A stretch of DNA of 37,415 bases. It comes from Bacillota bacterium (GTDB lineage Bacteria; Bacillota; JADQBR01). The stretch covers positions 1 to 37,415 of the forward strand of contig JADQBR010000047.1 of assembly GCA_016278515.1 (NCBI GenBank). The letters are read 5' to 3'. The number at the start of each line of letters is the position of its first letter. Within the stretch, counting starts at the first letter, position 1. The translations under genes and the position numbers were made by a program. Under the pieces are notes generated by a model. The model was not told the DNA's origin. It made no database searches and saw only the letters and a program-made list of their open reading frames with translations. Below, in pieces: positions 7,577 to 35,554 of the stretch.

Positions 7577-7943
7577 ACCTAAATTATCCAGTAACCAATC
7601 GAGATATAGTGCGTCTGCGGTCCAACGGTTTTGTGAACTATTATGGTTGAATATCAGTTTATAATAGTAAACAGTGTTGTAGTGTAACGAAACGAAACAA
7701 CGTAGCTAAATGATACACTTATTATAGCAGTGCAGCGCTACACTTTTATATATTATTTTGCTGAATAAATTTCAGTAGAGGTTTTTTCGTAGAGAGCTGT
7801 GGGGCTTCGGGGTAGTTTTTGCTTTATTGGGCAAATGCTGAAAGGGAAATGGCACGTATTTTGCTACTATTATAGAGTTGTATTAGTCGTGTTGAGATTA
7901 GACAATACAGAGTTAAAAATTATGATAAGGAAGGTGATTTGTT
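7577..7943. other. Regulatory intergenic region before the 420-aa gene
   Basis: This 367-bp stretch has no supported gene. It carries CCAGTAACCA (7588-7597), similar to the activator boxes near 6141. It also has GTTTA-N6-TAAAC (7657-7672), a 16-bp near-palindrome AGTGCAGCGCTACACT (7729-7744, one mismatched pair) and the sigma-54 promoter at 7850. A short ORF starting at 7799 overlaps the promoter and has no ribosome site, so I do not count it. Confidence 0.55.
7850..7866 (+). promoter_or_regulatory. Sigma-54 (-24/-12) promoter of the 420-aa gene and panB-like gene
   Basis: TGGCACGTATTTTGCTA matches the consensus TGGCACG-N4-TTGCW at every defined position, with GG at 7851-7852 and GC at 7863-7864, 10 bp apart. 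Transcription should start near 7876, about 68 nt before ATG 7944. The activator encoded at 4570 is the obvious partner. The nearest matching box is CCAGTAACCA at 7588, farther off than usual but workable with DNA looping. Confidence 0.85.
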
Positions 7944-9245: not shown

Positions 9246-10097
9246 ATGGCTAAGAAAAGTAGATTAGATTTTGAAAGAATGGCTGCTGAAGGGGAAAAGA
9301 TTGTATATTTGACCGCTTATGATTATCTGACTGCTAAGATGGCAGAAAAAGCGGGAATAGACATGATTTTGGTTGGCGACTCAGCAGGGATGGTGTCCCT
9401 AGGTTATGAAACTACATTGCCAGTAACAATGGAAGATATGGTTCGCTTCTGCCAGGCGGTTCGCAGGGGCGCTCCCAACACCTTTATCGTTGGTGATATG
9501 CCTTACATGTCTTACCAGGTATCCGATGAGCAGGCTGTTATAAATGCCGGCAGGTTGATTCAAGAGGGTGGCGCTGATTCTGTTAAACTCGAAGGCGGCG
9601 GGGAAGCAATGGCTAGCAGAATTAAAGCTATTAATGAGGCTGGAATTCTGGTGATGGGCCATATCGGCTTGACACCCCAATCCATGGCCCAGCAGGGTGG
9701 CTATAAAGCCCAGGGTAGAAACTCGGAAGCGGCCGTTAAAGTATGTCAGGAAGCAAAAAGATTGGAAGTTGCTGGAGCGTTCAGTATCCTGGTAGAAGCT
9801 ATACCGACTCAGGTAGGTGCGATAATAACTAATAGGGCAAACATTCCCATATTAGGTATTGGCGCTGGCTCCAAAACTCACGGGCAGCTGTTGATTTATG
9901 CAGACATGGTTGGGCTTTACGATAACTTCACACCCAAGTTCGTTAAGAAGTATGCAAACGCCAATGAAATTATTACCAAGGCGTTCAGCGACTATGCTAA
10001 AGATGTAAGGGAGAATAACTTCCCAGTTGATGAAGAGCATACTTATAAGATGAAAGAAGAAGAAGTTGAGAATTTTTTAAAAAAGCTTGAACAATAG
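9246..10097 (+). CDS. panB: 3-methyl-2-oxobutanoate hydroxymethyltransferase (PanB family), probably catabolic
   Basis: This 283-aa TIM-barrel enzyme belongs to the family that interconverts 2-oxoisovalerate plus methylene-tetrahydrofolate and ketopantoate. Signature stretches are LTAYDYLTAKM, ILVGDSAGMV (metal Asp), IVGDMPYMSYQ (metal Asp), SVKLEGG (metal Glu), VMGHIGLTPQS, the catalytic Glu in LVEAIPTQ, and ILGIGAGSKTHGQ. All active-site residues look intact and the length is normal. Biosynthetic panB is usually beside panC and panD; neither is in this window. Instead it follows an unknown gene under a sigma-54 promoter inside a catabolic cluster, so it may run in the cleavage direction or use a different 2-oxo acid. 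Family is secure; the catabolic role is inferred. Confidence 0.88.
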   Translation: MAKKSRLDFERMAAEGEKIVYLTAYDYLTAKMAEKAGIDMILVGDSAGMVSLGYETTLPVTMEDMVRFCQAVRRGAPNTFIVGDMPYMSYQVSDEQAVINAGRLIQEGGADSVKLEGGGEAMASRIKAINEAGILVMGHIGLTPQSMAQQGGYKAQGRNSEAAVKVCQEAKRLEVAGAFSILVEAIPTQVGAIITNRANIPILGIGAGSKTHGQLLIYADMVGLYDNFTPKFVKKYANANEIITKAFSDYAKDVRENNFPVDEEHTYKMKEEEVENFLKKLEQ

Positions 10098-10365: not shown

Positions 10366-11517
10366 TTGCTTTCTGAAACCGTTCAATTGACAAAAGATCT
10401 GGTAAGAATTCCTAGTGAAAATCCTAATGGCAACGAAATCGAAATGGCCCACTTTGTTCGTGACTGGCTTAGGAACACTGGAGCGGATGTTTATGTGGAA
10501 AAAGTGGCTCCTGGGCGTAATAACATTATTGCCAGGATTGAAGGCGAAGAGGATATGGGTAATTTGGTCTATGTCGGCCATATGGATACCGTGCCGGCGG
10601 GAGAAGGGTGGAGTTGCGACCCGTTCTCAGGAGACATTAAAGACGGAAAGCTTTACGGCCGAGGAAGTGCGGACATGAAGGGCGGTCTGGCTGCAGCTAT
10701 GGTAAGCTTTAAACGTATTGCCGCAAGTGGGGAAAAACCTAAGCGGACCTTTATATTAATCGCAAGTGTGGATGAAGAAGGCCCGGGTATGATAGGTGCC
10801 ATTGATGCGGTTGAGCGAGGGTGGGTGAAAGAGGATAGTATGGTGGTAGCGGCAGAGCCATCAGGCCTTACTGTTATGCCAGCCCATAAAGGACCCATGT
10901 GGTTTGAAATTACTTCTAAGGGGAAAATGAGTCATGCTGGTAATCCTCAGGTAGGTGTAGATGCCATCCATGCAATGGCAGCAATACTTAGTGAACTAAA
11001 AATATCTGTGGACGAACTGACGTATGATGATGAACTGCTCGGTCGCCCCACCGTTACTATTGGTAAAATTGGGGGCGGAGTAAAAACCAATGTTGTTCCT
11101 GATGAATGTAAAGCTGAAATTGACCTACGTTTGATAGTACCAATGACTGTTGATGAAGGAAAGTCCCTTGTGCAGGTTGCGATTGATAAAGGCACCGCCA
11201 AAGTTGCGGGTTCTAGCGCCAGCTACACAGTTCTCACCATTGATCGGCCTCCCATCAAAGCTGCGGCAGATTCTCCTTTGATTGCTGCTGTAGATGAAGC
11301 TGTTGAAAAGGTATCCGGCAAGAAAGCAGAACATAAAGGCCTGCCGGCTTATACTGATGCGTCAATAATCGCTGCTCGTACCGGCAGCAAACACTGTATA
11401 ACTTTTGGACCTGGCCACCTGGCCCAGGCACACACTGTTGATGAATATGTCCCTATAGACCAGCTGGATATGGCAGCAGACATGCTAACAGAAACAGCGA
11501 AAAACTTGCTTTGGTGA
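10366..11517 (+). CDS. M20-family metallohydrolase (ArgE/DapE/CPG2 type)
   Basis: This 383-aa dinuclear-zinc amidohydrolase is expected to remove an N-acyl group from, or hydrolyse a short peptide-like bond in, an amino-acid derivative. Metal ligands and neighbours are visible: H72 and D74 in GHMDTV, D103 in SADMKGG, the catalytic pair E137-E138 in DEEGPG, EPSGL, and a late His in GHLAQAHTVDEYV. I use TTG 10366, which has GGAGGGG at 8 nt; an upstream in-frame extension is AT-rich and lacks a ribosome site. It is the first gene after the TATAATGTCGA inverted repeat and is followed by a TRAP transporter, so its substrate is probably what that transporter imports. The exact substrate cannot be told. 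Confidence 0.87.
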   Translation: MLSETVQLTKDLVRIPSENPNGNEIEMAHFVRDWLRNTGADVYVEKVAPGRNNIIARIEGEEDMGNLVYVGHMDTVPAGEGWSCDPFSGDIKDGKLYGRGSADMKGGLAAAMVSFKRIAASGEKPKRTFILIASVDEEGPGMIGAIDAVERGWVKEDSMVVAAEPSGLTVMPAHKGPMWFEITSKGKMSHAGNPQVGVDAIHAMAAILSELKISVDELTYDDELLGRPTVTIGKIGGGVKTNVVPDECKAEIDLRLIVPMTVDEGKSLVQVAIDKGTAKVAGSSASYTVLTIDRPPIKAAADSPLIAAVDEAVEKVSGKKAEHKGLPAYTDASIIAARTGSKHCITFGPGHLAQAHTVDEYVPIDQLDMAADMLTETAKNLLW

Positions 11518-11709: not shown

Positions 11710-12741
11710 ATGAAAAAATACTGGAAAATAATTACTATTGCATTAGTAGCTTTGTTTGTGATGGGTCTTGCAGTTGGTTGCGGTGGTAATGACCAAGCTG
11801 CTGAAACAGGTGGAGAAAAAGCAGACAAGCCTGTGACACTACGTGTTGGGCACACTGTTCAGGAAGACACTGCTCTGCATAAAGGTGCTTTGAAATTTGC
11901 CGAGATAGTGGATGAGAAATCAGACGGTCAAATTAAAGTAGAAGTTTTTGCGGCATCAGCGATGGGTGGAAACCGTGAATTAATTGAATCATTACAGGCA
12001 GGTAGTCTAGACTTTGCTCTTCCTGCAATGGGTGTGTTAGGCGGGTTTACTGATAAAACTGCAATTTTTGACCTGCCATACCTATTTAAAAATGATGAAG
12101 AAGCAGAAAAAATTCTTGACGGCGAAATAGGCCAGGACATCTTCGAACAGATTGAGGAAACTGGTTTAAAGGGACTTGCTTACTGGACCCAAGGCTGGCG
12201 TAATCTTACTACAGGAGATGTTGCTGTGGATTCACCGGAGAAGATAAAGGGTCTGAAGATCAGAACTATGGAAGTTCCCCTGCACATGGAACACTTTAAT
12301 ACCATAGGCGCCAGCGCAGTGCCGATGGCCTTCTCAGAAGTGTATACCAGTTTGCAGCAGGGTGTAATTGACGGTCAAGAGAACCCTTATGTGAATATTT
12401 ACCTGATGGGCTTTTATGAAGTACAGGAATACATTACAGAAACACAGCATATTTATGACCCAGTTCCCATGTTAATGTCACTGGTTACCTGGGACAAGTT
12501 ATCTCCTGAACGTCAGCAGATTGTTAAGGAAGCTGCGGAAGAAGTGAAGGCTTGGGAGAGAGAAGAAGCTAGAAAGGACAAGGCTAAGTATAAAGAAGTT
12601 ATTGAAGGAACCGGTCAAAACCAAATCATAGAGTTGACAGATGCACAGAGAGCAAAATTCCGCGATGCAGCACAGCCAGTTTATGATAACTTTAAAGATC
12701 AGGCACTCTTGAAAGAATTACAGAAAGCTTTGGGAAGATAA
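11710..12741 (+). CDS. dctP: TRAP transporter solute-binding lipoprotein DctP
   Basis: This 343-aa extracytoplasmic protein captures an organic acid and hands it to the DctQM permease. An N-terminal signal (MKKYWKIITIALVALFV) leads to a lipobox ending in AVGC, so it should be anchored as a lipoprotein, as in Gram-positive cells. DctP family stretches include GHTVQEDTALHKGALKFAE, LKIRTMEVPLH and QQGVIDGQENP; the Arg of the second normally salt-bridges the substrate carboxylate. ATG 11710 follows GGGGGGA. A hairpin terminator behind it (12757-12793) probably keeps its expression above that of the membrane subunits. The ligand is likely a carboxylate or N-acyl amino acid, from the neighbouring hydrolases. 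Confidence 0.93.
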   Translation: MKKYWKIITIALVALFVMGLAVGCGGNDQAAETGGEKADKPVTLRVGHTVQEDTALHKGALKFAEIVDEKSDGQIKVEVFAASAMGGNRELIESLQAGSLDFALPAMGVLGGFTDKTAIFDLPYLFKNDEEAEKILDGEIGQDIFEQIEETGLKGLAYWTQGWRNLTTGDVAVDSPEKIKGLKIRTMEVPLHMEHFNTIGASAVPMAFSEVYTSLQQGVIDGQENPYVNIYLMGFYEVQEYITETQHIYDPVPMLMSLVTWDKLSPERQQIVKEAAEEVKAWEREEARKDKAKYKEVIEGTGQNQIIELTDAQRAKFRDAAQPVYDNFKDQALLKELQKALGR

Positions 12742-12838: not shown

Positions 12839-13366
12839 TTGTTCAAAAGGATTGCCAATTTTTTTGACAACATTGAAGAGTATATCATTATTGTCCTGTT
12901 TTCCATTATTTTAGTTATCTTAGGTACTACCGTTGTAACCAGATACGTATTTTCTTACACACCTTCTTGGGCTGAGCAAACTGCTAGAATTATGTTTGTC
13001 TGGGTTACCTATGCCGGTATTAGTTTGGCTGCGCGTAAGCATATGCATTTACGAGTTACTGCCATTAATATGGTTTTGCCTCAGAAAGCACGGGCCTATA
13101 TGTTGCTGGTGGGTGACTTGATTGGCTGCGGAGTTGCCGGATTTTTGGCATATCGAATTTTTGTTATGACCATGAGTATTTTTCAGAGGGGTCAAGTTTT
13201 TGCGGCTATTCCCATGGTTCCAGTATGGATTATGTATATTGCCGGGGCTTTGGGGATGACGGGTATGGTTATTAGGTACTTGCAGGCTGGTATTATACCG
13301 ACTATCCGTGACCTGTTGGCTGGAAAAGATCCTACTATCGAAATAGCAGACCAAGATCAGTTTTAA
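12839..13366 (+). CDS. dctQ: TRAP transporter small permease DctQ
   Basis: This 175-aa membrane protein has about four hydrophobic segments: IIIVLFSIILVILGTTVV, a region around IMFVWVTYAGISLA, MLLVGDLIGCGVAGFLAY and VWIMYIAGALGMTGMVI. This is the normal layout and length of the small TRAP subunit. ARKHMHLRV after the second segment is a family hallmark. It starts at TTG 12839 behind a long GAGGGGGGGAG stretch. It lies 19 bp before dctM. Confidence 0.9.
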   Translation: MFKRIANFFDNIEEYIIIVLFSIILVILGTTVVTRYVFSYTPSWAEQTARIMFVWVTYAGISLAARKHMHLRVTAINMVLPQKARAYMLLVGDLIGCGVAGFLAYRIFVMTMSIFQRGQVFAAIPMVPVWIMYIAGALGMTGMVIRYLQAGIIPTIRDLLAGKDPTIEIADQDQF

Positions 13367-13384: not shown

Positions 13385-14674
13385 ATGGTAACTACAGTTT
13401 TATTTGCGTCATTGGCAATTGGCTTAATTTTTACAGTGCCTATTGCTATCACCCTAGCTTTAGCTAGCGGTCTAATATTTACTGTTTTCTATGCGGGCTC
13501 TCCCATGGGAAACCTGCTTGCCCAGTCTATGATAACGACGATTGACTCCTTTCCTATTATGGCCGTTCCTTTCTTTATGCTGGTGGGTATCCTGATGGAA
13601 AAAACCGGGATTGCCATGCGTTTGATTAGAGTGGGGGAGGCTATTGCCGGTGAGGCGCCTGGGGGTTTAGGAGCTGCTACAATTATCGCTTGTATGTTCT
13701 TTGCTGCTATCTCCGGGTCAGGCCCTGCAGTTGTGGCGGCAATTGGTGCTATTATGATTCCGGCGATGGCGGATAGGGGGTACGCCCGAGATTACTCAGG
13801 TTCCCTGGTTGCAGCGGCGGCAACTATCGGACCTGTTATTCCGCCAAGTATCCCCATGATTATTTATGGGGCAACGGTGGGCGTTTCAGTTATTAAACTG
13901 TTCACTGCTGGTTTTGTCCCAGGTATTATTATGGGTGTGGCTTTACTGGTTATGAATTATATAATTTCAAAGAAAAGGGGCTACGTGGGTGTTCCGCGCG
14001 GCGGTGGTTTTAAATGGGTGCTGGGCGAATTATGGGAAGCAAAATGGGCCCTGATTATGCCAGTGATTGTGTTGGGCGGTATTTACGCCGGATTATTTAC
14101 CCCTACAGAATCGGCTGTTGTAGGGGTATTTTACGCTTTGGCCGTTGGCCAGTGGATTTATAAGGATTTAACTTGGGCGAAAGTAAAGGAAAGTTTGGTC
14201 GAAGCATCTTTGCTATCTGCTATAGTCATGATTCTTCTTGGTGGCGCTACAACTTTTGGCCGTTTGCTGACTCTTGAGAGAATACCCGAGGCCTTGGCGA
14301 GCTGGATGTTGAGTATCACAGAGACTCCTCTGTTGATTATGCTCATGATTAACGTTTTCTTGCTCTTCTCCGGTATGTTTATTGATACCATTTCAAACGT
14401 GGTGCTCTTCAGTCCGCTTTTGGTGCCCATCGTCGTCGCTGCCGGTTATGATGCAGCGTGGTTCGGTGTTATAATGACCATTAACCTTTGTATTGGATTC
14501 CTGACACCTCCGCTTGGCATGAATCTCTTTGTTGCGCAGGGGGTAGCAAAAGTGCCATTTGAAAATATAGTGAAAGAGGTAATGCCCCTGCTGCTTGTAC
14601 TTATCGCCATGCTGATAGCATTTGTGCTTTTCCCAGATTTGATTATGTTCTTCCCAAGAATGATGGGTTATTAA
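13385..14674 (+). CDS. dctM: TRAP transporter large permease DctM
   Basis: This 429-aa protein with about a dozen hydrophobic segments forms the transport channel of a sodium- or proton-driven TRAP system. Family stretches visible are IDSFPIMAVPFFMLVGILMEKTG, FFAAISGSGPAVVAAIGAIMIPAM, AAAATIGPVIPPSIPMIIYG and FTPTESAVVGVFYA. Length is typical. Ribosome site AGAGGAGG precedes ATG 13385. Its stop lies 18 bp before the next hydrolase start, so transport and hydrolysis are co-transcribed. Confidence 0.94.
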   Translation: MVTTVLFASLAIGLIFTVPIAITLALASGLIFTVFYAGSPMGNLLAQSMITTIDSFPIMAVPFFMLVGILMEKTGIAMRLIRVGEAIAGEAPGGLGAATIIACMFFAAISGSGPAVVAAIGAIMIPAMADRGYARDYSGSLVAAAATIGPVIPPSIPMIIYGATVGVSVIKLFTAGFVPGIIMGVALLVMNYIISKKRGYVGVPRGGGFKWVLGELWEAKWALIMPVIVLGGIYAGLFTPTESAVVGVFYALAVGQWIYKDLTWAKVKESLVEASLLSAIVMILLGGATTFGRLLTLERIPEALASWMLSITETPLLIMLMINVFLLFSGMFIDTISNVVLFSPLLVPIVVAAGYDAAWFGVIMTINLCIGFLTPPLGMNLFVAQGVAKVPFENIVKEVMPLLLVLIAMLIAFVLFPDLIMFFPRMMGY

Positions 14675-14692: not shown

Positions 14693-15943
14693 GTGAATGA
14701 TAAAATTCGCAAAAAAGCGACGGAACTTGAGCCTAGGATTATTGACTTTACTCAGCGCCTCATTCAGACCCAAAGTGCTTCCGGTCAGGAACGCGCTGTC
14801 GCAAAGTTGATACAATCGGAGATGGAGCAATTAGGCTTTGATAAAGTTTTTAACGATAAGGTAGGTAATGTAGTGGGCATCTTACAAGGTCAGGGTGGCG
14901 GTGAAAATATTATTTTTAATAGCCATATGGACCATGTAGATGCCGGTAATCTGGCGGATTGGGAATACGAACCCTATGCAGGAGTGATTGCTGACGGCTG
15001 GGTACATGGTAGGGCTGCCAGCGATGTGAAGGGTGCTATTGCAAGTCAAGTGTATGGAATCTATATACTAAAAGAACTAGGAATTAAACCCCAAGGCGAT
15101 GTAATCCTCACCTTCGTTATTGACGAGGAGCCGGGCGATATGTGGGGTATGAAGCGTCTATGCCAGGATTGGCTACAGGACCGGCCGGTTTCCCTTTGTG
15201 TATTGGGTGAAGCTACTTCGCTCAATATATATCTGGGACACCGGGGGCGTCTGGAAATGGAACTTACCAGTAGAGGACAGATGTCCCACTCCAGCGCACC
15301 GCGTTTAGGTATTAATGCTGTCAGCAAAATGGCACCGGTGGTTTGTAAGCTGGACCAGCTCAGCCAATCCCTTCCGGAGGATGAAACGTTGGGAAGTTCC
15401 ACATTGGCTGTCACCCACATCAGTTGTGAACCTGGCTGGGGCAGTACCGTTCCGGATATCTGCCGGGTATTTATTGACCGCAGGTATATACCGTCGGAGA
15501 GTACGGAAGAAGTTGTTGAGCAAGTAAGGCAGGTGGTTGCTGAATGTCAAGTTGAAGATGGTGATATTCAAGTGAACGTACAAATAAGGCAGCTTAACCA
15601 TAAGAGCTACACCGGTATTTCCGAGTCGGCAGACCTCTTAAAGCAGCCTTATTTGGTTGCTAGGGATAACCCTTATGTAGAAAAGGTGGTAGCTGCCCTT
15701 AAGGAGCACGGCCAAGCTCCGTCATTTGGCGCCTGGGATTTTGGGACCGATGGCAGTTATACGGCACATGTTTTGGGCATACCCACTATTGGTTACGCAC
15801 CGGGAGAGGAAATCTATGCGCACCGTCCCACTGACAGGGTGAGAATTGACTATTTGGTAGAAGCAGCTGCAGGTAATGCTGTGATTGCCGTTGGCGTTGC
15901 AGGCGAATATAAAGGTGGGGTGACAAATGTCGAAAATTATTAA
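14693..15943 (+). CDS. M20-family metallohydrolase, YgeY-like
   Basis: This 416-aa zinc amidohydrolase differs from the one at 10366. H78 and D80 lie in NSHMDHVDAG, D111 in SDVKGA, and D144-E145-E146 in VIDEEPGD; GEAT and a late His in YAHRPTD complete the metal site. The HMDHVDAG and DEEPGD forms resemble the YgeY branch, found near hydantoin and carbamoyl-compound genes in other bacteria. I choose GTG 14693 with GGAGGG 7 nt upstream over the in-frame ATG 14675, which lies before that ribosome site. The gene overlaps the next amidase by 17 bp. A deacylase or peptidase acting on an imported N-substituted amino acid is likely. Confidence 0.85.
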   Translation: MNDKIRKKATELEPRIIDFTQRLIQTQSASGQERAVAKLIQSEMEQLGFDKVFNDKVGNVVGILQGQGGGENIIFNSHMDHVDAGNLADWEYEPYAGVIADGWVHGRAASDVKGAIASQVYGIYILKELGIKPQGDVILTFVIDEEPGDMWGMKRLCQDWLQDRPVSLCVLGEATSLNIYLGHRGRLEMELTSRGQMSHSSAPRLGINAVSKMAPVVCKLDQLSQSLPEDETLGSSTLAVTHISCEPGWGSTVPDICRVFIDRRYIPSESTEEVVEQVRQVVAECQVEDGDIQVNVQIRQLNHKSYTGISESADLLKQPYLVARDNPYVEKVVAALKEHGQAPSFGAWDFGTDGSYTAHVLGIPTIGYAPGEEIYAHRPTDRVRIDYLVEAAAGNAVIAVGVAGEYKGGVTNVENY

Positions 15944-16814
15944 CATCGGGCTGATTCAGGCGTCGAATCCCTTATCTGGCGAGGAAGATCTGCAGGTAAT
16001 CAAGGACGCCATGCTGGAAAAACACGTTCAATTAATCAACCAAGCTGGGGAAAAAGGGGCAAATATTGTCTGTCTACAGGAATTGTTTAATGGTCCTTAT
16101 TACGCAGCTGAACAAAACAAAAAATGGTACGCATATGCAGAGAAAATCCCCGAGGGACAGACGACACAACTGCTCCAATCGCTGGCCAAAAAACATGAGA
16201 TGGTTATTGTCGGGCCAATAACTGAAGTGACCCATAGGGGAATATATTATAACACTGCCGTAATAATTAATGCTGATGGATCTTTTTTGGGTAAATATAG
16301 GAAAGTGCATATTCCGCAAATGTATCCCAGCGCCTGGGAAAAGTTTTACTACAAGCCCGGCAATTTGGGTTACCCGGTATTTGATACAGCTTTCGGAAAA
16401 GTGGGAATCATCATATGTCATGACAGACATTTCCCCGAACCAGCCAGGGTATTGGGGTTAGCCGGTGCGGAGATAGTGTTCACTCCCTCAGGGACCACCA
16501 AAGGTATTACCGAGCACCTGTGGGAATTGGAAATGAGGGGCCTGGCGGTGCAAAATGGTTATTTTGTAGGCGCAATTAATAGGGTTGGTGTTGAAGAACC
16601 GTGGAAGACCGGTGAGTATTACGGCAAAAGCTATATATCTGACCCTCTAGGTAATATTGTCGCCAAGGCCGGTAAGGATGTGGATGAGGTGCTGGTGGCT
16701 CCAGTTGATTTGGAGAAAATTGATGAAGTCCGCCATACTTGGCAACTGTACCGGGACCGTCGTCCGGAAACTTACGGGCCGATCACGAACCTCCATCCTT
16801 TTTCCGATTACTAA
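15927..16814 (+). CDS. Carbon-nitrogen hydrolase, N-carbamoyl-amide hydrolase-like
   Basis: This 295-aa nitrilase-superfamily amidase has triad residues E52 (CLQELFNG), K126 (YRKVHIP) and C164 (ICHDRHFPE). The CLQELFNGPYY and DRHFPEPAR stretches resemble N-carbamoylputrescine amidase and beta-ureidopropionase, which release ammonia and CO2 from carbamoyl groups. The residue after the catalytic Cys is His, where Tyr is more usual. Its start lies within the end of the M20 gene (17-bp overlap), pointing to tight translational coupling and consecutive steps on one substrate. A carbamoyl amino acid or omega-amide is possible; pantothenate-type amides cannot be ruled out. Confidence 0.87.
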   Translation: MSKIINIGLIQASNPLSGEEDLQVIKDAMLEKHVQLINQAGEKGANIVCLQELFNGPYYAAEQNKKWYAYAEKIPEGQTTQLLQSLAKKHEMVIVGPITEVTHRGIYYNTAVIINADGSFLGKYRKVHIPQMYPSAWEKFYYKPGNLGYPVFDTAFGKVGIIICHDRHFPEPARVLGLAGAEIVFTPSGTTKGITEHLWELEMRGLAVQNGYFVGAINRVGVEEPWKTGEYYGKSYISDPLGNIVAKAGKDVDEVLVAPVDLEKIDEVRHTWQLYRDRRPETYGPITNLHPFSDY

Positions 16815-16848
16815 TTTTAATATTGTGTTCGAAAGGAGGCAATCTTTG

Positions 16849-17919
16849 ATGTTTCCGATTTTTAAGTTAAAAGGAAGCGCTTATGAAATAGGCTGTCAGC
16901 ATGGAAAACTTGCTAAAAAGCAGATAGGTATCTGCATTGATACCTATCAGCAGTTGTTTATGAGTTATGCCGGTCTAGAGTGGACGGAGGCGGTGGACCA
17001 GGCAGAACAGTACGTGAGTCACATTGAAAAATACAGTCCGGATCTGATGGCTGAAATTAGGGGGATAGCCGATGGCTGCGGCAGGGACCTGCTAGATATT
17101 GTTACCCTTAATGCCCGCAGCGAAATAATGCTGACTACCAAGGCGGTGGATGGCTGTACTTCCTTTGGCATTACGCCCCAAGCGGGAAAAGACGGTGTGG
17201 CCTATATGGGCCAGAATTGGGATTGGAAAGATACTGTTTTTGATGCACTAATAGCCCTGGTAATCACCCAGGAAGGTAAACCCAACATTAGGATGATAAC
17301 TGAAGCGGGAATTGTAGGCAAATTTGGACTAAATGATGCTGGTATCGGCATCTGTATGAATGCTTTAGCCTGTGAGGAAAGCGTCCCTGGCGTCCCGCTG
17401 CATGTAGTAATGCGTGGCATATTAAATTCACCGAACTTGGGTGAGGCCATCGGCAATGTGGGGAATGCTCAAATTGCCTCGGCTGCCAATTGGGTGATTG
17501 GCCATCAGGAGGGAGAAATTATGGACTTGGAAGTGACTCCTTCAGAATTTGATGTGCTCTACCCTGAAGAAGGTATTTTGGTGCACACCAATCATTTTAC
17601 TAGCGCTTTTTTAAAACCAAGGTTGAAAGATATTACAAAATACCTTTTGCCTGATAGTATGGTGCGCTATAATCGGGCGCGGCGATTGCTGGCGGAAAGC
17701 AAAGGTAGTATCGCCCTTGATGAGCTGGGCATGATCCTTTCTGACCACTTTAACTACCCCCATGGGATCTGCCGCCATTTAAAAGAGGACTCTTCGGGGA
17801 AACAAATTGTGTCGGTTTTTTCCATCATTATGGATTTATCTAACCAGGATATTTTCGTAGCGACAGGGAATCCTTGCCAGACGCCTTTTGAAAAATGGCA
17901 TCCCCAGGATGATGATTAA
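16849..17919 (+). CDS. C45-family autoproteolytic acyltransferase/hydrolase
   Basis: This 356-aa Ntn-hydrolase is related to fungal acyl-CoA:6-aminopenicillanate acyltransferase. The self-cleavage site is visible as VDGCTSFG, making C103 the new N-terminal nucleophile after processing. GQNWDW and the EAGIVGKFGLNDAGIGICMNAL block are typical of the family. Bacterial members hydrolyse or transfer acyl groups on amides. ATG 16849 has a strong AAAGGAGG; a much longer in-frame upstream extension overlaps the previous gene and is discarded. It is the fourth amide-acting enzyme in this operon. Cytoplasmic, as no signal peptide is seen. Substrate unknown. Confidence 0.85.
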   Translation: MFPIFKLKGSAYEIGCQHGKLAKKQIGICIDTYQQLFMSYAGLEWTEAVDQAEQYVSHIEKYSPDLMAEIRGIADGCGRDLLDIVTLNARSEIMLTTKAVDGCTSFGITPQAGKDGVAYMGQNWDWKDTVFDALIALVITQEGKPNIRMITEAGIVGKFGLNDAGIGICMNALACEESVPGVPLHVVMRGILNSPNLGEAIGNVGNAQIASAANWVIGHQEGEIMDLEVTPSEFDVLYPEEGILVHTNHFTSAFLKPRLKDITKYLLPDSMVRYNRARRLLAESKGSIALDELGMILSDHFNYPHGICRHLKEDSSGKQIVSVFSIIMDLSNQDIFVATGNPCQTPFEKWHPQDDD

Positions 17920-18163
17920 TAGCTGAATAAGTGCCTAGTCTATGAATGGTAGAACCCTGTTGCTTGACCTGCAGGAGTATGTTGCAGCGGGAGAAATAAT
18001 TTGCCATCAGGAAATCGGATAATAGGATTGGCCCAACAACATGAGAGGTAATGAGGCCTCCTATTGAACGGAAGAAGGCTAGTAATGCATTACAAGATCA
18101 TTACCAGCAAGACCAGATAGAGAAATTCATAAAATCAGTAAAATTTTTAGGGGGTTGCATGTC

Positions 18164-18934
18164 GTGAAGTTACCAACAATGAATCTTGACGGGAAAACGG
18201 TAATTGTCACCGGCGCCGGCCGGGGCATTGGCAGGACACTAGCTCTTGGCCTGGCTTCTGCTGGAGCAAATATCGTCGCAGTCAGCAGAACACAGGAACA
18301 AGTGGATGAAGTAGCAGCGGAAATAAAGGAAATGGGTCGGGAAGCATTGTCATTAAGTGTTGACGTTACTAAAATGGCAGATTTGGACAACATGGTTAAA
18401 AAGACTATAGAACAATTCGGTACTGTTGACGTTCTGGTCAATAATGCCGGCGTAACCAAGAAAATACCAGCGGAGGAACTGACCGAGGAAGATTGGGACG
18501 TTGTAATGGACACCAACTTAAAAGGCATGTTCTTCTGTGCCCAAAAAGTTGGAAAAAAGATGATTAAACAAGAAAAAGGGTCCATAGTCAATTTAGCATC
18601 AGTGGGAAGCAAAGTGGCTATCAGCAACTCCGTAGCTTACTGCGGGAGCAAAGGCGGACTGCTGCAGATAACTAAAGTGCTAGCGGTAGAATGGGCGAAG
18701 TATAACGTTCGTGTAAATGGTGTTGGCCCGGCATATATAGAGACACCGCTGTTAACATGGATTAAGGACCAGCCAGATGTTTATAGCAAAATAACTAACA
18801 GGACACCCATGGGTCGTATGGGTAAACCCGAAGAAATTTTGGGGGCAGTGCAGTATCTTGCATCCGATGCTGCCAGCTATGTAACAGGTGAGACTATTTT
18901 TGTTGATGGCGGTCTCTTATCATACGGTGTTTAA
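18164..18934 (+). CDS. Short-chain dehydrogenase/reductase (SDR)
   Basis: This 256-aa NAD(P)-dependent alcohol dehydrogenase has the Rossmann motif TGAGRGIG, NNAG, catalytic S146, and Y159-K163 in YCGSKGG; it ends with the usual TGETIFVDGGL. It resembles gluconate 5-dehydrogenase and 3-oxoacyl reductase types. GTG 18164 is the best start (AGGGGG at 9 nt); a TTG at 18155 would touch that ribosome site. It opens a block continuing with FAD oxidases, after a 244-bp gap, so it likely oxidises a hydroxy intermediate of the same pathway. Substrate unknown. Confidence 0.9.
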   Translation: MKLPTMNLDGKTVIVTGAGRGIGRTLALGLASAGANIVAVSRTQEQVDEVAAEIKEMGREALSLSVDVTKMADLDNMVKKTIEQFGTVDVLVNNAGVTKKIPAEELTEEDWDVVMDTNLKGMFFCAQKVGKKMIKQEKGSIVNLASVGSKVAISNSVAYCGSKGGLLQITKVLAVEWAKYNVRVNGVGPAYIETPLLTWIKDQPDVYSKITNRTPMGRMGKPEEILGAVQYLASDAASYVTGETIFVDGGLLSYGV

Positions 18935-18964
18935 TTTATGACCGGCAAAAGGGGGAAAGCAACC

Positions 18965-20347
18965 ATGCTAAATAGTAAGGTGCTAAAAGAAATTACCCAA
19001 ATAGTAGGTAAAGAAAACGTATTTACAGCTCCTGAAGATCTGCATTGTTATGCAGAAGATGCAACATTAGGGGTTATATCAAAACCGCCGGAAGCAGTAG
19101 TCAAGCCCGGCTCAGCTGAAGAAATATCCCGGATTTTAAAGCTGGCAAATAAAGAGCATTTTCCCGTCGTGCCCAGGGGTGCAGGTACTAGTTTGAGCGG
19201 TGGAGCCATGCCATTAGAAGGCGGGATAGTACTAGAAACCAACCGCTTAAATAAAATCCTGGAAATAGACAAGGAAAACCTCACGGCTTTTGTCCAACCT
19301 GGAGTAATCACAGCAAAGTTCCATCAGGAAGTGGAAAAGTTGGGCCTGTTCTTTCCTCCAGATCCTGGCAGTATGGCCGTCTCCACCCTTGGAGGCAATG
19401 TAGCCTCAAGTTCAGGTGGACTGAGAGGATTGAAGTACGGTACAACTAGAGATTATGTATTGGGACTGCAGGTAGTAATGCCATGGGGAGCAATTGTCAA
19501 TATAGGTGGCCGCACTGCTAAAAACGTGACAGGGTATGATCTCACCCGCTTGATGGTTGGCTCAGAAGGGACATTAGGAGTAATCACGGAAATTACAGTC
19601 AAACTCCTGCCTCTACCAAGTCATTCAAGGAGTATGCTGGCCATTTTTGACCAATTAGACAATGCGGCAGAGACTATTTCTGCAATTATAGCCAATAAAA
19701 TCATTCCTTGTACTTTGGACATTATGGACAATAATGCTATTAAAGCCATTGAAGCTGCCTCGAAGGTGGGCTTGCCCCTGGAAGCTGAGGCTATTCTTCT
19801 GATAGAAGTGGATGGCAGTATCGAAGCAGTAGTCGAGGACGAACTGCAAAGGGTTCAGGAAATTTGCCAGGAGTATAAGGTTCGGGAGGTACAAGTTGCT
19901 CGTACTCCCGAAGAAAAAATAAAAGTATGGCAGGCACGAAGGAACTCCTATGGCGCTTTTAACAAACTGAATAATACCGATATTGTGGAAGATGTTACCG
20001 TGCCGCGAAGTAAGGTGCCGGACATGATTAGGGTTATCCGTGACTTGGCAGAACGATATGACCTAACTATAGCAACCTTAGGTCACGCTGGAGATGGCAA
20101 TATGCATCCGAATATTGTTTATGATCGTAATAACAAGGATGAAGTGGAACAAGTGGAAAAAGCGGTCGATGACATGTTTGCTGCCGCCATAAAGATGGGC
20201 GGTACACTTTCCGGAGAGCACGGAATTGGTCTAACAAAAAAGCCATTTATGAAGTGGGAAATGGGAGATGACGGGATAGAGGTATTAGCAAGAATTAAAA
20301 ACGCATTGGACCCAAACGGAATCTTAAATCCCGGCAAAATGTATTAA
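18965..20347 (+). CDS. glcD: FAD-linked 2-hydroxyacid dehydrogenase, GlcD-like
   Basis: This 460-aa flavoprotein oxidises a 2-hydroxy acid such as D-lactate or glycolate to the 2-oxo acid. The FAD-binding PCMH domain covers about residues 35-215 (VPRGAGTSLSGGAMP, DPGSMAVSTLGGNVASSSGG, GGRTAKNVTGYDLTRLMVGSEGTLG). The FAD-oxidase C-terminal domain ends with HAGDGNMHPN, GEHGIGLTKK and DPNGILNPGKM. ATG 18965 is preferred because AAAGGGGGAAA precedes it; an earlier ATG at 18938 has none. It is followed 19 bp later by its Fe-S partner. No GlcE partner is present in this pair, unlike the second set at 31479. Confidence 0.9.
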   Translation: MLNSKVLKEITQIVGKENVFTAPEDLHCYAEDATLGVISKPPEAVVKPGSAEEISRILKLANKEHFPVVPRGAGTSLSGGAMPLEGGIVLETNRLNKILEIDKENLTAFVQPGVITAKFHQEVEKLGLFFPPDPGSMAVSTLGGNVASSSGGLRGLKYGTTRDYVLGLQVVMPWGAIVNIGGRTAKNVTGYDLTRLMVGSEGTLGVITEITVKLLPLPSHSRSMLAIFDQLDNAAETISAIIANKIIPCTLDIMDNNAIKAIEAASKVGLPLEAEAILLIEVDGSIEAVVEDELQRVQEICQEYKVREVQVARTPEEKIKVWQARRNSYGAFNKLNNTDIVEDVTVPRSKVPDMIRVIRDLAERYDLTIATLGHAGDGNMHPNIVYDRNNKDEVEQVEKAVDDMFAAAIKMGGTLSGEHGIGLTKKPFMKWEMGDDGIEVLARIKNALDPNGILNPGKMY

Positions 20348-20366: not shown

Positions 20367-21629
20367 ATGAATCAGACTAAAGACCAACTAGATTTTTGGC
20401 AAGCTGAGACCATTAAATGTGTCAAATGCGGGACATGTCGATCGGTTTGCCCGATATTTGAGCAATTAGACCATGAAACAGTGGTTGCCCGGGGTAAAAT
20501 ATCGTTAATAAACGCTATGCTGGAAGGCAAACAAGATTTTTCGCCAAGGATGAAAGAAGTACTGGGGCTATGCCTTGTCTGTAAAAGATGCACGGCAAAT
20601 TGTCCTGGCGGGGTCAAAATTGATGAAATAGTGACCAGGGCTCGCACTGCCTTTGAGACGAAGACTTTATCCATTGGTAAACGTGCTGCTTTCCGGTTGG
20701 TGCGCAGCCATTCTTTTTTTAACACTCTCCTACGCACGGGTGCGAAATTTCAAAACCTTTTTTTCAGAAGAGATAAAGATAAGCAGGGGATGTATCCCAG
20801 GTTACCAGTAGGGATATCCCGGAGGCGTTTGCTCGCCCCGATAGCTAGCCATTCTTTTATCGGTCAGCAACCTAGGAGAATAAACGGGAAGATGAAAGTA
20901 GCTTTTTATGCCGGGTGCATGATCAACCATATTTATCATGATATTGGCGAAGCAGTAGTAAAAGTTCTGAAGGCAGGGCAAGTTGACGTTATTATACCAA
21001 AGCGCCAGGTGTGCTGCGGCACTCCCCTGTCCACCTCCGGAGACCGATCTTCCGCAGCAGAGTTAGCTGCTCGTAACATAGAGGCCCTGACAGCGGTAGA
21101 TGTGGATGCGGTGGTGGTTGCCTGTGCATCATGTGGTTTATCACTCAAAAAAGAATTTGTAGAGTTGTGCTCTGAGTACAAACCGGAACTTGTGGAGAAA
21201 GCGAAAACACTCAGCGAGAAAGTATATGATTTCTCCGAGTTTTATTTGAAGTACCTGACGGACCTAAAGCTAGAGACACCTGTTAATAAAAAGGTGACCT
21301 ACCATGATCCTTGTCACTTGGTGAGAGGACAGGGTGTTTCTCAAGAGCCCCGGGAGATAGTTAAATCAATTCCTGGAGTGGATTTTGTTGAGGCGAAAGA
21401 TGCTGATAAATGCTGCGGTTCAGGTGGGTCGTTTAGTTTAATACACTATGATTTATCTACGGCTATAAATGATGAAAAAATAGCTAATCTTGACCAAACT
21501 GGCGCTGAGATAAGCATCACAAGTTGTCCAGCCTGTAAAATGCACATTAACGACGGGCTGGCCAGAAATAACTCAGGGCAACAGGCTAAACACGTGGCTG
21601 AACTTTTAGCAGAAACACTTTTAAAGTAA
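20367..21629 (+). CDS. glcF: Iron-sulfur subunit, GlcF-like heterodisulfide-reductase-type protein
   Basis: This 420-aa protein carries electrons from the flavin subunit encoded just upstream. Two 4Fe-4S motifs lie at the N-terminus: C18-x2-C-x2-C-x3-C28 and C69-x2-C-x2-C-x3-C79. Two cysteine-rich CCG-type domains follow, with QVCCGTPLS, ACASCGLS, HDPCHLVRG, DKCCGSGGSF and TSCPACKMH. Length is normal for GlcF. In an anaerobe the electrons probably reach menaquinone or an electron-transferring flavoprotein; no such gene is in the window. Confidence 0.92.
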   Translation: MNQTKDQLDFWQAETIKCVKCGTCRSVCPIFEQLDHETVVARGKISLINAMLEGKQDFSPRMKEVLGLCLVCKRCTANCPGGVKIDEIVTRARTAFETKTLSIGKRAAFRLVRSHSFFNTLLRTGAKFQNLFFRRDKDKQGMYPRLPVGISRRRLLAPIASHSFIGQQPRRINGKMKVAFYAGCMINHIYHDIGEAVVKVLKAGQVDVIIPKRQVCCGTPLSTSGDRSSAAELAARNIEALTAVDVDAVVVACASCGLSLKKEFVELCSEYKPELVEKAKTLSEKVYDFSEFYLKYLTDLKLETPVNKKVTYHDPCHLVRGQGVSQEPREIVKSIPGVDFVEAKDADKCCGSGGSFSLIHYDLSTAINDEKIANLDQTGAEISITSCPACKMHINDGLARNNSGQQAKHVAELLAETLLK

Positions 21630-21704
21630 CTCCCGCATATTTAGAGAGGGAGCACATGTATTTAAAGAATTGGCTAATATAGCAGGATGGGGAAGGTGAT
21701 GGCT

Positions 21705-22988
21705 ATGTTTAAAAAGGTAAATGTGAAAATAGACGGGGGTTTTGAGTTGGACCTTCCGGAAATGGTGAAGGTGCGTCAGGTATTTCCAGCGCCGGAGTTA
21801 GAAGATATTGAATTCACTGTTGCGGCTCAAATTAATAAGGAAGAAATAAAACAGCTTGTAAAACCAGGTGCCCGTATAGCGATAGCAGTCGGGAGTAGGG
21901 GTATTGCCAATCTGGATGTTATTGTGGGTGCTTTGGTTGCCAATCTTAAACAACTAGACGCTAAGCCAATAATAGTTCCGGGGATGGGCAGTCATGGCGG
22001 TGCTACTGCAGAAGGACAACGGGGAGTATTGGCAAATTACAACATTACTGAGGAAACTATGGGTGTTCCTGTTAAATCATCCATGGAAGTGGTACAAATA
22101 GCTGAGTTGGATGATGGCTATCCAGTCTACCTTGATAAAACAGCTTTTGAATGTGATGCTATTATCCCCGTCAATCGGGTTAAACCCCATACGGACTTTA
22201 AAGGTCCCCATGAGAGCGGTTTGTTAAAAATGCTGGCTATTGGACTGGGTAAACACAAAGGAGCGACTAAAGTTCACACCCAGGGTTTCAACCAATTTGC
22301 ACATTTAATACCCGCATTGGGTCAGACCATTATCCGAAATGCGCCGGTAATTTTTGGTTTGGCAATTCTAGAAAACGCCTATGACCATACAGCAGAAGTT
22401 ATTGCCATTAAGGCAGACAAAATATATGACCAGGAAAAGGAATTAAATTCTAGGGCTAAAAATCTGCTGCCTAAATTTTTAATGTCTGAAATTGACGTAT
22501 TGATTGTTAATGAAATGGGCAAGGACATTTCCGGTAGCGGTATGGACCCCAACATCATTGGAAGAAATGTTTCTGGCGAACCGGGCTTTGCAGCGCCGCC
22601 AATTAAAAAAATAGTAGTTCTGGGATTAACAGAAAAAACCCATGGGAACGTCACCGGTTTTGGTCTTGCTGACGTAACCACTTTGTTGGTGGTTAACCAG
22701 ATTGATTTTAGCGCTACTTATGCAAATGCTATTACCTCTACTGAATTGGATGGAGGGAAAATACCCATGTTTTTTAATAATGATAAAGAGGCTATTGCCG
22801 TGGCAGTAAAAACATGCAATCGGGTAGAACCCCGGGGGGCAAAAATTGTACGAATCAATAGCACCCTGGAAATGAGCGAGATAGAAGTATCAACTGCTTT
22901 AATACCCGAACTGGAAAAAAGGGATGACATTGAAGTTTTAAGCGCTCCATATCCGCTTAAGTATGACGCATCGGGGGTATTATTATGA
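21705..22988 (+). CDS. Lactate-racemase-N-domain (DUF2088) protein, divergent LarA relative
   Basis: This 427-aa protein belongs to the Lar_N/DUF2088 superfamily. Family features seen are AIAVGSRGIANLD, GMGSHGGATAEGQ and VNRVKPHTDFKGP followed by LKMLAIGLGKHKGA. The SDxTR loop that binds the nickel-pincer cofactor in true LarA is replaced here by GSRG, so it may act on another substrate or not use that cofactor. ATG 21705 is chosen because GGAAGG lies 8 nt before it; ATG 21687 lies before that ribosome site. It overlaps the aldolase gene by 4 bp (ATGA), showing translational coupling. Compare the canonical LarA at 30114. Confidence 0.75.
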   Translation: MFKKVNVKIDGGFELDLPEMVKVRQVFPAPELEDIEFTVAAQINKEEIKQLVKPGARIAIAVGSRGIANLDVIVGALVANLKQLDAKPIIVPGMGSHGGATAEGQRGVLANYNITEETMGVPVKSSMEVVQIAELDDGYPVYLDKTAFECDAIIPVNRVKPHTDFKGPHESGLLKMLAIGLGKHKGATKVHTQGFNQFAHLIPALGQTIIRNAPVIFGLAILENAYDHTAEVIAIKADKIYDQEKELNSRAKNLLPKFLMSEIDVLIVNEMGKDISGSGMDPNIIGRNVSGEPGFAAPPIKKIVVLGLTEKTHGNVTGFGLADVTTLLVVNQIDFSATYANAITSTELDGGKIPMFFNNDKEAIAVAVKTCNRVEPRGAKIVRINSTLEMSEIEVSTALIPELEKRDDIEVLSAPYPLKYDASGVLL

Positions 22989-23875
22989 AAAAAATCTATG
23001 GCAACCATTGTTTAATTGTTACACCTATGAACGAGAAACGGGAGATTGATGAAGAATCAACACGCTCTTTGGTGGATTATGTGATTGACAAGGGGGTGCA
23101 CGGTATCCTTGCCTTGGGCAGCACCGGTGAGGTATTTGCCCTGACTGAGGCTGAACGCAAGCGCTTTATAGAAATTATAGTGGACCAGGCAGCAGGTCGG
23201 GTGCCGATAGGGGTGGGGGTAAACGACTCTGCGACTGACGTGGCGGTTCTTTTGACCGTCCACGCTGAAGAAGCCGGTGTGGACTACATCTTTACCTGTC
23301 CGCCTTACTATCATCCCCACCGGGAGGTAGGGGTGTTTAACCACATCAAGGCAATTGCGGATGCTACCAGTCTACCGGTTATGGTCTATGATGGCGGCGC
23401 TGGCATAGAGATCTCCCTGCCGCTTTTAAAAAAAATGGCATATGCAATGCCTAATTTAAAAAGCGCCAAGCTCTTTCTACCATACCCCCCAAAAATAGCT
23501 GCTTACGCTGAAGCTACCGACGGTAAAATCGAGCCTTTTGCCGGTCATGACCAAATGAACTATTTGATGCTGTTGTACGGCGCCAATGGGATGACTTCCG
23601 CCGCCAGCAACGTGATTCCCAAGGAACAATCAGACATGTTTGACTTTATTCAGGAGGGTAAACTCAAGCAAGCAAGAGCGATTTTTTTGGGAAAAATTGC
23701 GCCTCTCAACGCAATTGCCTTTGCTAATGTCCTGCAGTACCCGCAGGCCTACAAACACTCATTAAAACTAATGGGAGTAATTAAACACGATACCTGTAAG
23801 GTAGTGATGGAGCCAATAAGCGATATAAGGAAACGAGAATTACATGAAGCAATGGAGTATATTGGTCTGCTATAA
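22985..23875 (+). CDS. DapA/N-acetylneuraminate-lyase family aldolase of unknown substrate
   Basis: This 296-aa class I aldolase has the family GSTGE loop, and a lysine in KSAKLF at the Schiff-base position. The catalytic Tyr is in VYDGGAG, where dihydrodipicolinate synthases have LYNVPGR, so the substrate pocket differs from lysine biosynthesis. Such enzymes condense or cleave 2-oxo acids with aldehydes. It is coupled by a 4-bp overlap to the Lar_N gene. In this setting cleavage of a hydroxylated 2-oxo acid is more likely than diaminopimelate synthesis; this is inference from motif and context. Confidence 0.85.
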   Translation: MKKIYGNHCLIVTPMNEKREIDEESTRSLVDYVIDKGVHGILALGSTGEVFALTEAERKRFIEIIVDQAAGRVPIGVGVNDSATDVAVLLTVHAEEAGVDYIFTCPPYYHPHREVGVFNHIKAIADATSLPVMVYDGGAGIEISLPLLKKMAYAMPNLKSAKLFLPYPPKIAAYAEATDGKIEPFAGHDQMNYLMLLYGANGMTSAASNVIPKEQSDMFDFIQEGKLKQARAIFLGKIAPLNAIAFANVLQYPQAYKHSLKLMGVIKHDTCKVVMEPISDIRKRELHEAMEYIGLL

Positions 23876-26725: not shown

Positions 26726-26745
26726 GTTAAGGAGTGATTGTTGTA

Positions 26746-28701: not shown

Positions 28702-28702
28702 T

Positions 28703-29323: not shown

Positions 29324-29353
29324 ACTGGCGAAACATACTAGGGGGTGACAAGG

Positions 29354-30034: not shown

Positions 30035-30113
30035 CAATAACAATGATTTGTGGGATTTTTGCAGATTGAAGCTGGTAATCCCCCGTTGGTTGTTTTATAT
30101 GGAGGAGTTATAT

Positions 30114-31391: not shown

Positions 31392-31478
31392 ACAAGAGGG
31401 CTAACAAAGCTTTAAAGTATTTTGGATTAAATAGATCTTTCCAAATTTAGTACCGGTCTATACTAGGGGATGATTTCT

Positions 31479-35469: not shown

Positions 35470-35554
35470 TCAAGAAAAATGATATTAAGTAGTCTAATGT
35501 TTAAATCAAATGGTGGGAGCAAAGACTAAGCCAAGAAGATTGAGGTGGAGCAAT

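Follow-up and report, generated by a model that had tools for sequence, protein, structure and literature searches.

The window analysed here is a 37,415-nucleotide contig of a Bacillota bacterium (JADQBR010000047.1; draft genome G000, 167 contigs). It carries a gene cluster of about 28 kb, from orfX (7944) to a gene for a GntR-family regulator (36220), with every gene on the plus strand. The cluster joins a TRAP (tripartite ATP-independent periplasmic) importer, DctPQM, and four hydrolases to the ketopantoate hydroxymethyltransferase PanB and a series of oxidation enzymes. The gene families, gene order and genomic contexts suggest that its main substrate may be pantothenate or a close N-pantoyl amide, a reading to which we give a probability of about 0.42; it is probable that, for one acid or another, the hydrolases supply a hydroxyacid pathway of the PanB type. 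The proposal comes from two independent lines that point to one substrate: PanB in the company of importers of this kind, and hydrolases whose relatives probably act at a step releasing beta-alanine.

In the proposed route, DctPQM would import a pantothenate-type anion, which the nitrilase-type hydrolase and/or a YgeY-type M20 hydrolase (M20b) would split into pantoate and beta-alanine; a further M20 hydrolase (M20a) and the C45 hydrolase would take related amides. LarA22 together with GlcDF (or the short-chain dehydrogenase, SDR) would epimerise pantoate and oxidise it to ketopantoate. PanB, working backwards, would transfer the CH2OH group to tetrahydrofolate and leave 2-oxoisovalerate, which IorAB and AcdAB would convert to isobutyrate with a gain of ATP. 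The route gives no step to orfX, the MFS transporter, the DapA-like protein or the second LarA/GlcDE/GlcF set, and it does not account for what becomes of the beta-alanine. From the genes we infer the substrate, in which direction PanB runs, how the hydrolases share the work, what happens to 2-oxoisovalerate and an anaerobic life style.

Results

PanB near relatives of the importer

Homologue searches covered 398 genomes (G numbers below; L numbers are loci and C numbers contigs), and families were assigned with Pfam and NCBIfam models and their cut-offs. Relatives of the window DctP at E≤1e-80 lie at 20 loci in 14 genomes; about 11-20 kb was read at each, and the window in full. PanB was found near 15 of the 20: in the window, on contigs C54 and C39 of G111, at both loci of G076, on C40 of G043, C28 of G120 and C24 of G000, and in G002, G004, G086, G066, G023, G048 and G242. 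In G048 (L157) the distance is about 5 kb, and a different TRAP set stands next to this PanB. GlcD, GlcF and a LarA22-type protein are present at eight of these 15 loci and PanE/ApbA at five (L145, L147 and L158 by Pfam, L154 and L155 by similarity); the two loci with neither (L153 and L157) both have another LarA-like protein. No single cassette holds both PanE and GlcDF/LarA22 (L145 has one of each, on opposite strands), as would be expected if both do the same step. By their gene content, the cassettes read as sets for pantoate uptake, oxidation to ketopantoate and reverse PanB.

At three loci (L154, L155 and L158) the TRAP-PanB-PanE genes are accompanied by those for FTHFS and FolD, side by side; FolD has a Pfam match at each of them, as has FTHFS in L154 and L158, and the FTHFS of L155 was recognised through 90% identity. 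The pair would dispose of the methylene-tetrahydrofolate arising from reverse PanB. These loci are compact candidates for pantoate fermentation, with ATP drawn from the hydroxymethyl carbon. M20 genes near PanB-PanE-TRAP in L147 and L155 were given no weight, M20 being common. Among loci with lower-scoring DctP relatives, PanB was present at three of 16 (three genomes, not random controls): L104 is a TRAP-LarA22-PanB-GlcDF cassette, L165 has the PanB of L101 at its edge, and in L172 PanB is about 9 kb off.

The window PanB keeps D45, S46, D84, K112, E114, H136 and E181 (E. coli numbering), which we take to be the catalytic positions. In protein families and in these residues the system resembles pantoate biosynthesis by PanB and PanE, but the window PanB stands beside an importer and dehydrogenases, with GlcDF and LarA22 and no PanE, and is proposed to run in reverse; the three sister loci with FolD and FTHFS beside PanB depart from biosynthesis further. 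At position 182, the 26 aligned PanBs divide into 19 with Ala or Gly, among them those of the window and G111, and seven with Cys (the five PanE-linked ones, L102_339 and L104); the split is not clean, as L104 is GlcDF/LarA22-linked. The window genome has six PanB genes, on contigs C7, C24, C74, C105 and C166, two of them in tandem on C7. Its single panC is on C152, which holds none of the six, and a search for ketopantoate reductase in this genome gave weak, partial ApbA matches at most.

Substrates of LarA enzymes include 2-hydroxy-3,3-dimethylbutyrate and 2,4-dihydroxybutyrate, according to the available part of PMC11770544. A "group 22" is mentioned in none of PMC11770544, PMC12393405 and PMC7583248 (main text in each case).

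Two unrelated hydrolases with relatives at a probable beta-alanine step

Relatives of the nitrilase at E≤1e-60 occur in 11 genomes; besides those of the window and G111, they come from nine genomes, with 55-59% identity. We read the loci in eight of the nine (G375 was left out): all eight have a dihydropyrimidinase-like gene and six a PreA-like gene. Both enzymes were named by NCBIfam in L200, where a nucleobase transporter and an aldehyde dehydrogenase also lie nearby; the other dihydropyrimidinases were tied to that of L200 by more than 35% identity. M20b has relatives at E≤1e-100 in only four genomes, the window, G111, G217 and G203. The one in G203 (51% identity) is the only one outside TRAP loci, and it belongs to a uracil-degradation cluster, in which it stands between dihydropyrimidinase and an aminotransferase, flanked by an NCS1 nucleobase transporter beyond the former and PreA beyond the latter. 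From these neighbours we infer that the relatives of both hydrolases free beta-alanine from N-carbamoyl-beta-alanine. Since pantoate and beta-alanine together make pantothenate, two unrelated hydrolases with relatives at this step suggest a pantothenate-type substrate.

The nitrilase keeps the catalytic Glu-Lys-Glu-Cys residues: its E52, K126, E138 and C164 align with E119, K196, E207 and C233 of human beta-ureidopropionase. Arg167 is also shared with the human enzyme, whereas the N-carbamoylputrescine amidase 5h8i has Gln. An assignment as the N-carbamoylputrescine amidase AguB was rejected on this residue and on the score (235.7 bits, with the cut-off at 410.25). The accessible text of PMC10741476 names E119, K196 and E207 for the human enzyme, and it puts Y234 near the carbonyl/carbamoyl group, with F205 located at the ligand. 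At the position of Y234 (165 in the window), the eight pyrimidine-linked relatives have Tyr, and the window and G111 have His. Two residues before the catalytic Glu, where the human enzyme has F205, the relatives have Phe and the window and G111 have Ala (Ala136); in the alignment the window nitrilase has a gap opposite this Phe, as the loop ahead of the Glu is 5-6 residues shorter in the window and G111 than in the eight relatives. Further changes of the window and G111 nitrilases lie around 55-60, 186-191 and 203-209. We take the acyl pocket as changed relative to beta-ureidopropionase, as judged from these alignments. M20b scores 339.2 bits with NF009555 (YgeY; cut-off 321) and 292 with TIGR03526 (cut-off 321.5).

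Family scans recognised no dihydropyrimidinase, PreA, dihydropyrimidine dehydrogenase or nucleobase transporter in the window, and for want of the first two of these pyrimidine degradation was rejected as the whole story. The likeness to the third step of pyrimidine catabolism lies in the clusters that hold the nitrilase and M20b relatives and in the kept catalytic residues of the nitrilase, and the difference in the lack of uracil-degradation neighbours here and in the two changed ligand-side residues and loop.

Likely ligand class of DctP

The best solved relatives of the window DctP are 4p47, 4pdd and 7bbr. Two of them, 4P47 and 7BBR, come from a group of TRAP binding proteins with sugar-acid, pantoate and erythronate ligands; the part of PMC11668362 available to us names 7BBR, 4N8Y, 4X8R, 4P47, 4PFR, 4NN3 and 4XEQ, the rest of the ten having held pantoate or erythronate. 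TRAP transporters for pantoate and D-erythronate have been described (PMC5812351 and PMC11668362, each in the portion available). The window protein also matches a C4-dicarboxylate-named DctP, 9dsy, at 1e-49; from the class of the window DctP, a simple C4-dicarboxylate is a less likely ligand.

Like the pantoate/erythronate binding proteins, the window DctP belongs to this class and keeps the carboxylate-binding Arg152, Arg173 and Asn213, but it differs from them at position 76 (4P47 numbering). This residue is acidic in all but one of the group and partners a ligand hydroxyl (PMC11668362, same portion). It is Asn in the window, G111, G217 and L144, and Asp or Glu in the remaining 16 aligned DctPs from the genomes (L155 excluded). 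By sequence, too, the Asn76 proteins are the nearest (49-63% identity to the window), and the four may go back to one shared ancestor. Asn76 looked good as a mark of an amide ligand with three loci, and fell with L144, a TRAP-LarA22-GlcDE locus in whose 12.9 kb there are no hydrolases and no PanB: because of this locus, Asn76 cannot serve as a sign of an amide ligand.

The hydrolases and the importer as a conserved unit

A preliminary description of this DNA had singled out a trio of hydrolases (M20b, nitrilase and C45) packed behind the TRAP genes with a 17-bp overlap and a 34-bp gap, and a further M20 enzyme (M20a) ahead of dctP. The reading frames bear out the packing, and frames together with Pfam and NCBIfam models bear out M20a. 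M20b probably starts at GTG 14693, with GGAGG 8 nt upstream and 18 bp after the end of dctM; the alternative is ATG 14675. The "four different hydrolases" of that description are four real genes, but they represent three families (M20 twice, CN_hydrolase and C45), as M20a and M20b are both M20. The unit is also far longer than the trio, including PanB, LarA, GlcDF, IorAB and an ADP-forming acyl-CoA synthetase.

That hydrolases and importer form a conserved unit, as had been supposed, is supported by G111, Clostridiales bacterium PH28_bin88 (LAKY01000069), which by its taxon labels is of a different family from the window's. Its order is orfX-PanB-(sigma-54 activator)-M20a-DctPQM-M20b-nitrilase-C45-SDR-GlcD-GlcF-LarA22, followed by DapA-MFS-AcdA-IorA-IorB-AcdB-LarA2-GlcDE-GlcF-GntR. 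This is identical to the window from orfX to GntR apart from the activator gene (52% identity), which sits between panB and M20a in G111 and ahead of orfX in the window. Identity is 53% for dctQ and about 58-82% for the other cluster genes (53-78% for the four hydrolases and the TRAP genes). G217 has the row IclR, LarA-like, Amidohydro_2, C45, DctPQM, M20, D-2-hydroxyacid dehydrogenase, M20, M20b.

The co-occurrence analysis that the preliminary description had proposed thus found all four hydrolase genes in G111, and C45 and three M20 genes with TRAP in G217. C45, TRAP and M20 genes are together in three genomes, in two of which the nitrilase completes the set; no other locus read held the complete set. 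A lack of co-occurrence, which that description had named as refuting its reading, was therefore not seen. Since the order recurs in G111 and a related grouping in G217, the association of hydrolases and TRAP genes is not due to chance. As for the substrate, N-carbamoyl or N-acyl chemistry had been expected, and it is supported in kind by the nitrilase and M20b relatives at the N-carbamoyl-beta-alanine step of uracil catabolism. The suggested several amides per molecule are not needed, as one N-acyl-beta-alanine (pantothenate) would explain the set; the hydrolases beyond those cleaving pantothenate would serve related amides.

The C45 protein scores 283.1 bits with NF040521 (cut-off 85), and its Cys103, the predicted nucleophile, aligns with the nucleophile Cys of the DGCT motif of penicillin acyltransferase. 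It resembles the C45 acyl-CoA:6-APA (6-aminopenicillanic acid) acyltransferase family in a nearly full-length match to 2x1d (residues 8-346 of 356), but it is bacterial and lies in a catabolic operon. Relatives at E≤1e-3 occur in 57 genomes and are mostly remote. They were dropped as a guide to the substrate, as most of the 40 loci compared share only C45 with the window; Pfam matches of 10 neighbours at three such loci were mixed (ABC transporter, isocitrate-type dehydrogenase, histidine kinase). In G026 (L035 11533-12957) an M20-type protein is the immediate neighbour of a C45 of 51% identity, and no window-like TRAP or PanB was found in the 20 kb read there. On a Halomarina halobia plasmid (L057) one M20a-like gene (32%) is directly ahead of C45 and another behind it, with a nitrilase-like gene (29%) 7 kb away; in a Tissierellia bacterium (L052) C45 (47%) lies between sigma-54-activator-like and LarA-like genes.

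orfX, promoter boxes and flanking genes

Members of the orfX family occur in 14 genomes with 61-72% identity, and orfX adjoins panB in the window, G111 (L034) and seven other loci read with an intact copy (L094-L100). A copy in G035 (L093) has an in-frame TGA, which may mark a pseudogene, recoding or an error of sequencing, and no panB was recognised beside it. A single-sequence structure model of orfX had a pLDDT (predicted local distance difference test) of 35; one from nine sequences was weak and barrel-like (pLDDT 57, pTM, the predicted template modelling score, 0.57), with no Foldseek match at E≤0.001. In a VIA comparison one chain had Z above 8 and the other rows shown, mostly barrel proteins, were below 8; we claim no fold and exclude no family.

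An exact sigma-54 box precedes orfX in the window, where about 0.04 exact matches would be expected with uniform bases; matches with up to two mismatches are at chance level (24 found, 22 expected). In G111 a sigma-54 box lies about 110 bp ahead of orfX and a further one, which the window is without, between C45 and SDR.

Upstream of the operon, the window has a second nitrilase-family gene (2563-3369; nearest model deaminated glutathione amidase, under cut-off), with a counterpart of 64% identity on the same side of the operon in G111 (L034 17588-18424). It also has an IS200/IS605-family transposase (3563-4006) and, upstream of orfX, a methionine gamma-lyase-like gene (6395-7576). Directly upstream of orfX in G111 are a thiolase and an HpaB-family protein (L034 11065-14010); the HpaB family includes 4-hydroxybutyryl-CoA dehydratases.

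Table 1. Features of the cluster and its upstream region in the window
Feature	Position	Strand	Basis or remark
Sigma-54-dependent activator	4570..6126	+	nearest models PrdR/NifA/TyrR, all under cut-off
Sigma-54 -24/-12 box TGGCACGTATTTTGCT	7850..7865	+	exact match, 78 bp ahead of orfX
orfX, 420 aa	7944..9206	+	no Pfam or NCBIfam match
PanB, ketopantoate hydroxymethyltransferase	9246..10097	+	TIGR00222, 314.9 bits, cut-off 207.55
M20a, ArgE/DapE-family deacylase	10366..11517 (TTG start)	+	above TIGR01910 cut-off
DctP, TRAP solute-binding protein	11710..12741	+	Pfam, NCBIfam and structure matches
DctQ, TRAP small membrane protein	12839..13366	+	family match
DctM, TRAP large membrane protein	13385..14674	+	family match
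M20b, YgeY-type M20 hydrolase	14693..15943	+	Pfam, NCBIfam
Nitrilase-superfamily amidohydrolase, beta-ureidopropionase kind	15927..16814	+	family match, residue alignment
C45 autoproteolytic acyltransferase/hydrolase	16849..17919 (ATG start)	+	NF040521
Short-chain dehydrogenase (SDR)	18155..18934	+	family match
GlcD-like FAD 2-hydroxyacid dehydrogenase	18938..20347	+	family match
GlcF/LdhH-like iron-sulfur partner	20367..21629	+	family match
LarA-family nickel-pincer isomerase, group 22 (LarA22)	21687..22988	+	NF052515, above cut-off
DapA-family aldolase or dehydratase	22985..23875	+	under DapA cut-off
MFS transporter	23964..25244	+	family match
ADP-forming acyl-CoA synthetase alpha (AcdA)	25391..26725	+	family match
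IorA-like 2-oxoacid:ferredoxin oxidoreductase alpha	26734..28701	+	611.6 bits, IorA cut-off 650.9
IorB-like beta subunit	28634..29323	+	true start probably further in
ADP-forming acyl-CoA synthetase beta (AcdB)	29345..30034	+	family match
Second LarA-family protein	30048..31391	+	nearest model malate racemase LarAH6, under cut-off
Fused GlcD-GlcE dehydrogenase	31470..34226	+	family match
Second GlcF-like iron-sulfur protein	34219..35469	+	family match
GntR-family regulator	35510..36220	+	last gene of conserved order

Discussion

Several observations weigh against pantothenate as the substrate. No PanB is nearby at five of the 20 loci with DctP relatives (G043 C53, G217, G111 C88, G120 C20 and G116), and the PanB-free loci L144 and L149 still carry GlcDE/F and LarA22, so this set does not need PanB. 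Among the loci read, the hydrolases are joined with PanB only in the window and G111; no PanB was found in the 40 kb read at G217, despite its C45, M20 and TRAP genes. The window DctP has Asn instead of the usual acidic residue at position 76, and the window PanB has Ala at position 182, where the E. coli enzyme has Cys, and may therefore prefer an analogue of ketopantoate. IorA fits the indolepyruvate model best, under its cut-off, and the VOR models weakly. General family scans recognised no family for beta-alanine use in the cluster. Finally, one pantothenase would suffice, and the presence of four hydrolases is unexplained.

Ala182 and Asn76 would both suit a different acid handled by the same architecture, a 2-hydroxy or 2-amino acid with CH2OH at C3, such as a 2,4-dihydroxybutyrate or tetronate conjugate, from whose 2-oxo form PanB would remove the hydroxymethyl group. 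TRAP relatives bind erythronate besides pantoate (PMC11668362, in the text available). In the sister loci L101 and L145, PanB and LarA-type genes stand beside PdxA and a four-carbon-acid-kinase-type protein (with a GD_AH-type dehydratase in L101), which fits threonate or erythronate; perhaps these gene sets link tetronate catabolism to PanB. Family scans found neither PdxA nor the kinase in the window cluster, however, and the beta-alanine signal of the nitrilase and M20b favours N-acyl-beta-alanines, the common example in nature being pantothenate. We regard a different acid as rather unlikely. The same signal can be taken more literally, with the hydrolases acting on imported N-carbamoyl-beta-alanine or N-carbamoyl amino acids and PanB/LarA/Ior, in the same operon, forming a hydroxyacid pathway of their own. 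By context, the closest relatives of both enzymes argue for this, as do the kept Glu-Lys-Glu-Cys and Arg167 of the nitrilase; it is made improbable by the changed residues near the carbamoyl pocket in the window and G111, the lack of recognisable dihydropyrimidinase, PreA and nucleobase transporter in the window, and the conservation of the whole gene order in G111.

It is also conceivable that, as the preliminary description had suggested, the cluster scavenges a family of N-acyl compounds, several N-acylated amino or hydroxy acids, each with its own hydrolase and none of them the main substrate. The three hydrolase families have broad known relatives, and G217 joins C45, three M20 genes, Amidohydro_2, a 2-hydroxyacid dehydrogenase and a LarA-like protein without PanB; but one dedicated transporter and a fixed order of 20-plus genes in two genomes favour one compound class, and we hold such scavenging to be quite improbable. 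Synthesis of pantothenate, with the nitrilase or M20b making beta-alanine and PanB making ketopantoate, would account for an operon in which PanB is combined with a relative of beta-ureidopropionase, and beta-alanine synthase supplies beta-alanine in Rhizobium etli (PMC7142369, available part). Here, however, panC is on another contig, no uracil-degradation genes were recognised in the window as a source of N-carbamoyl-beta-alanine, and the TRAP importer, IorAB, AcdAB, GlcDF, LarA and sigma-54 activator are catabolic in kind, which makes synthesis very unlikely.

Returning to pantothenate breakdown, the known downstream route for pantoate in Pseudomonas is oxidative, and we know of no pantothenase sequence for comparison. 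The route proposed here is like the pantothenase of Pseudomonas fluorescens in its first reaction, pantothenate to pantoate and beta-alanine, and in that proposed reaction only; downstream it would differ in using reverse PanB. The description of that pantothenase (pantothenate hydrolase) dates from 1966, and as late as 2023 no protein had been assigned to it, according to the accessible part of PMC10393543. In the open-licence literature, judged mainly by titles and the openings of abstracts, we found no report of pantoate or pantothenate breakdown via PanB. Tentatively, and at somewhat less than even odds, the cluster would be the first gene-level case of pantothenate fermentation, combining TRAP import, a beta-ureidopropionase re-purposed as pantothenase and reverse PanB, with the sister TRAP-PanB-PanE-FolD-FTHFS cassettes of other bacteria in the phylum fermenting free pantoate and gaining ATP from its hydroxymethyl group.

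The locus gives four candidate genes for pantothenase. If the proposal is true, PanB, known as a biosynthetic enzyme, would serve for breakdown in several bacteria, and this breakdown would be tied to importers and one-carbon energy metabolism, adding a route to the turnover of vitamin B5.

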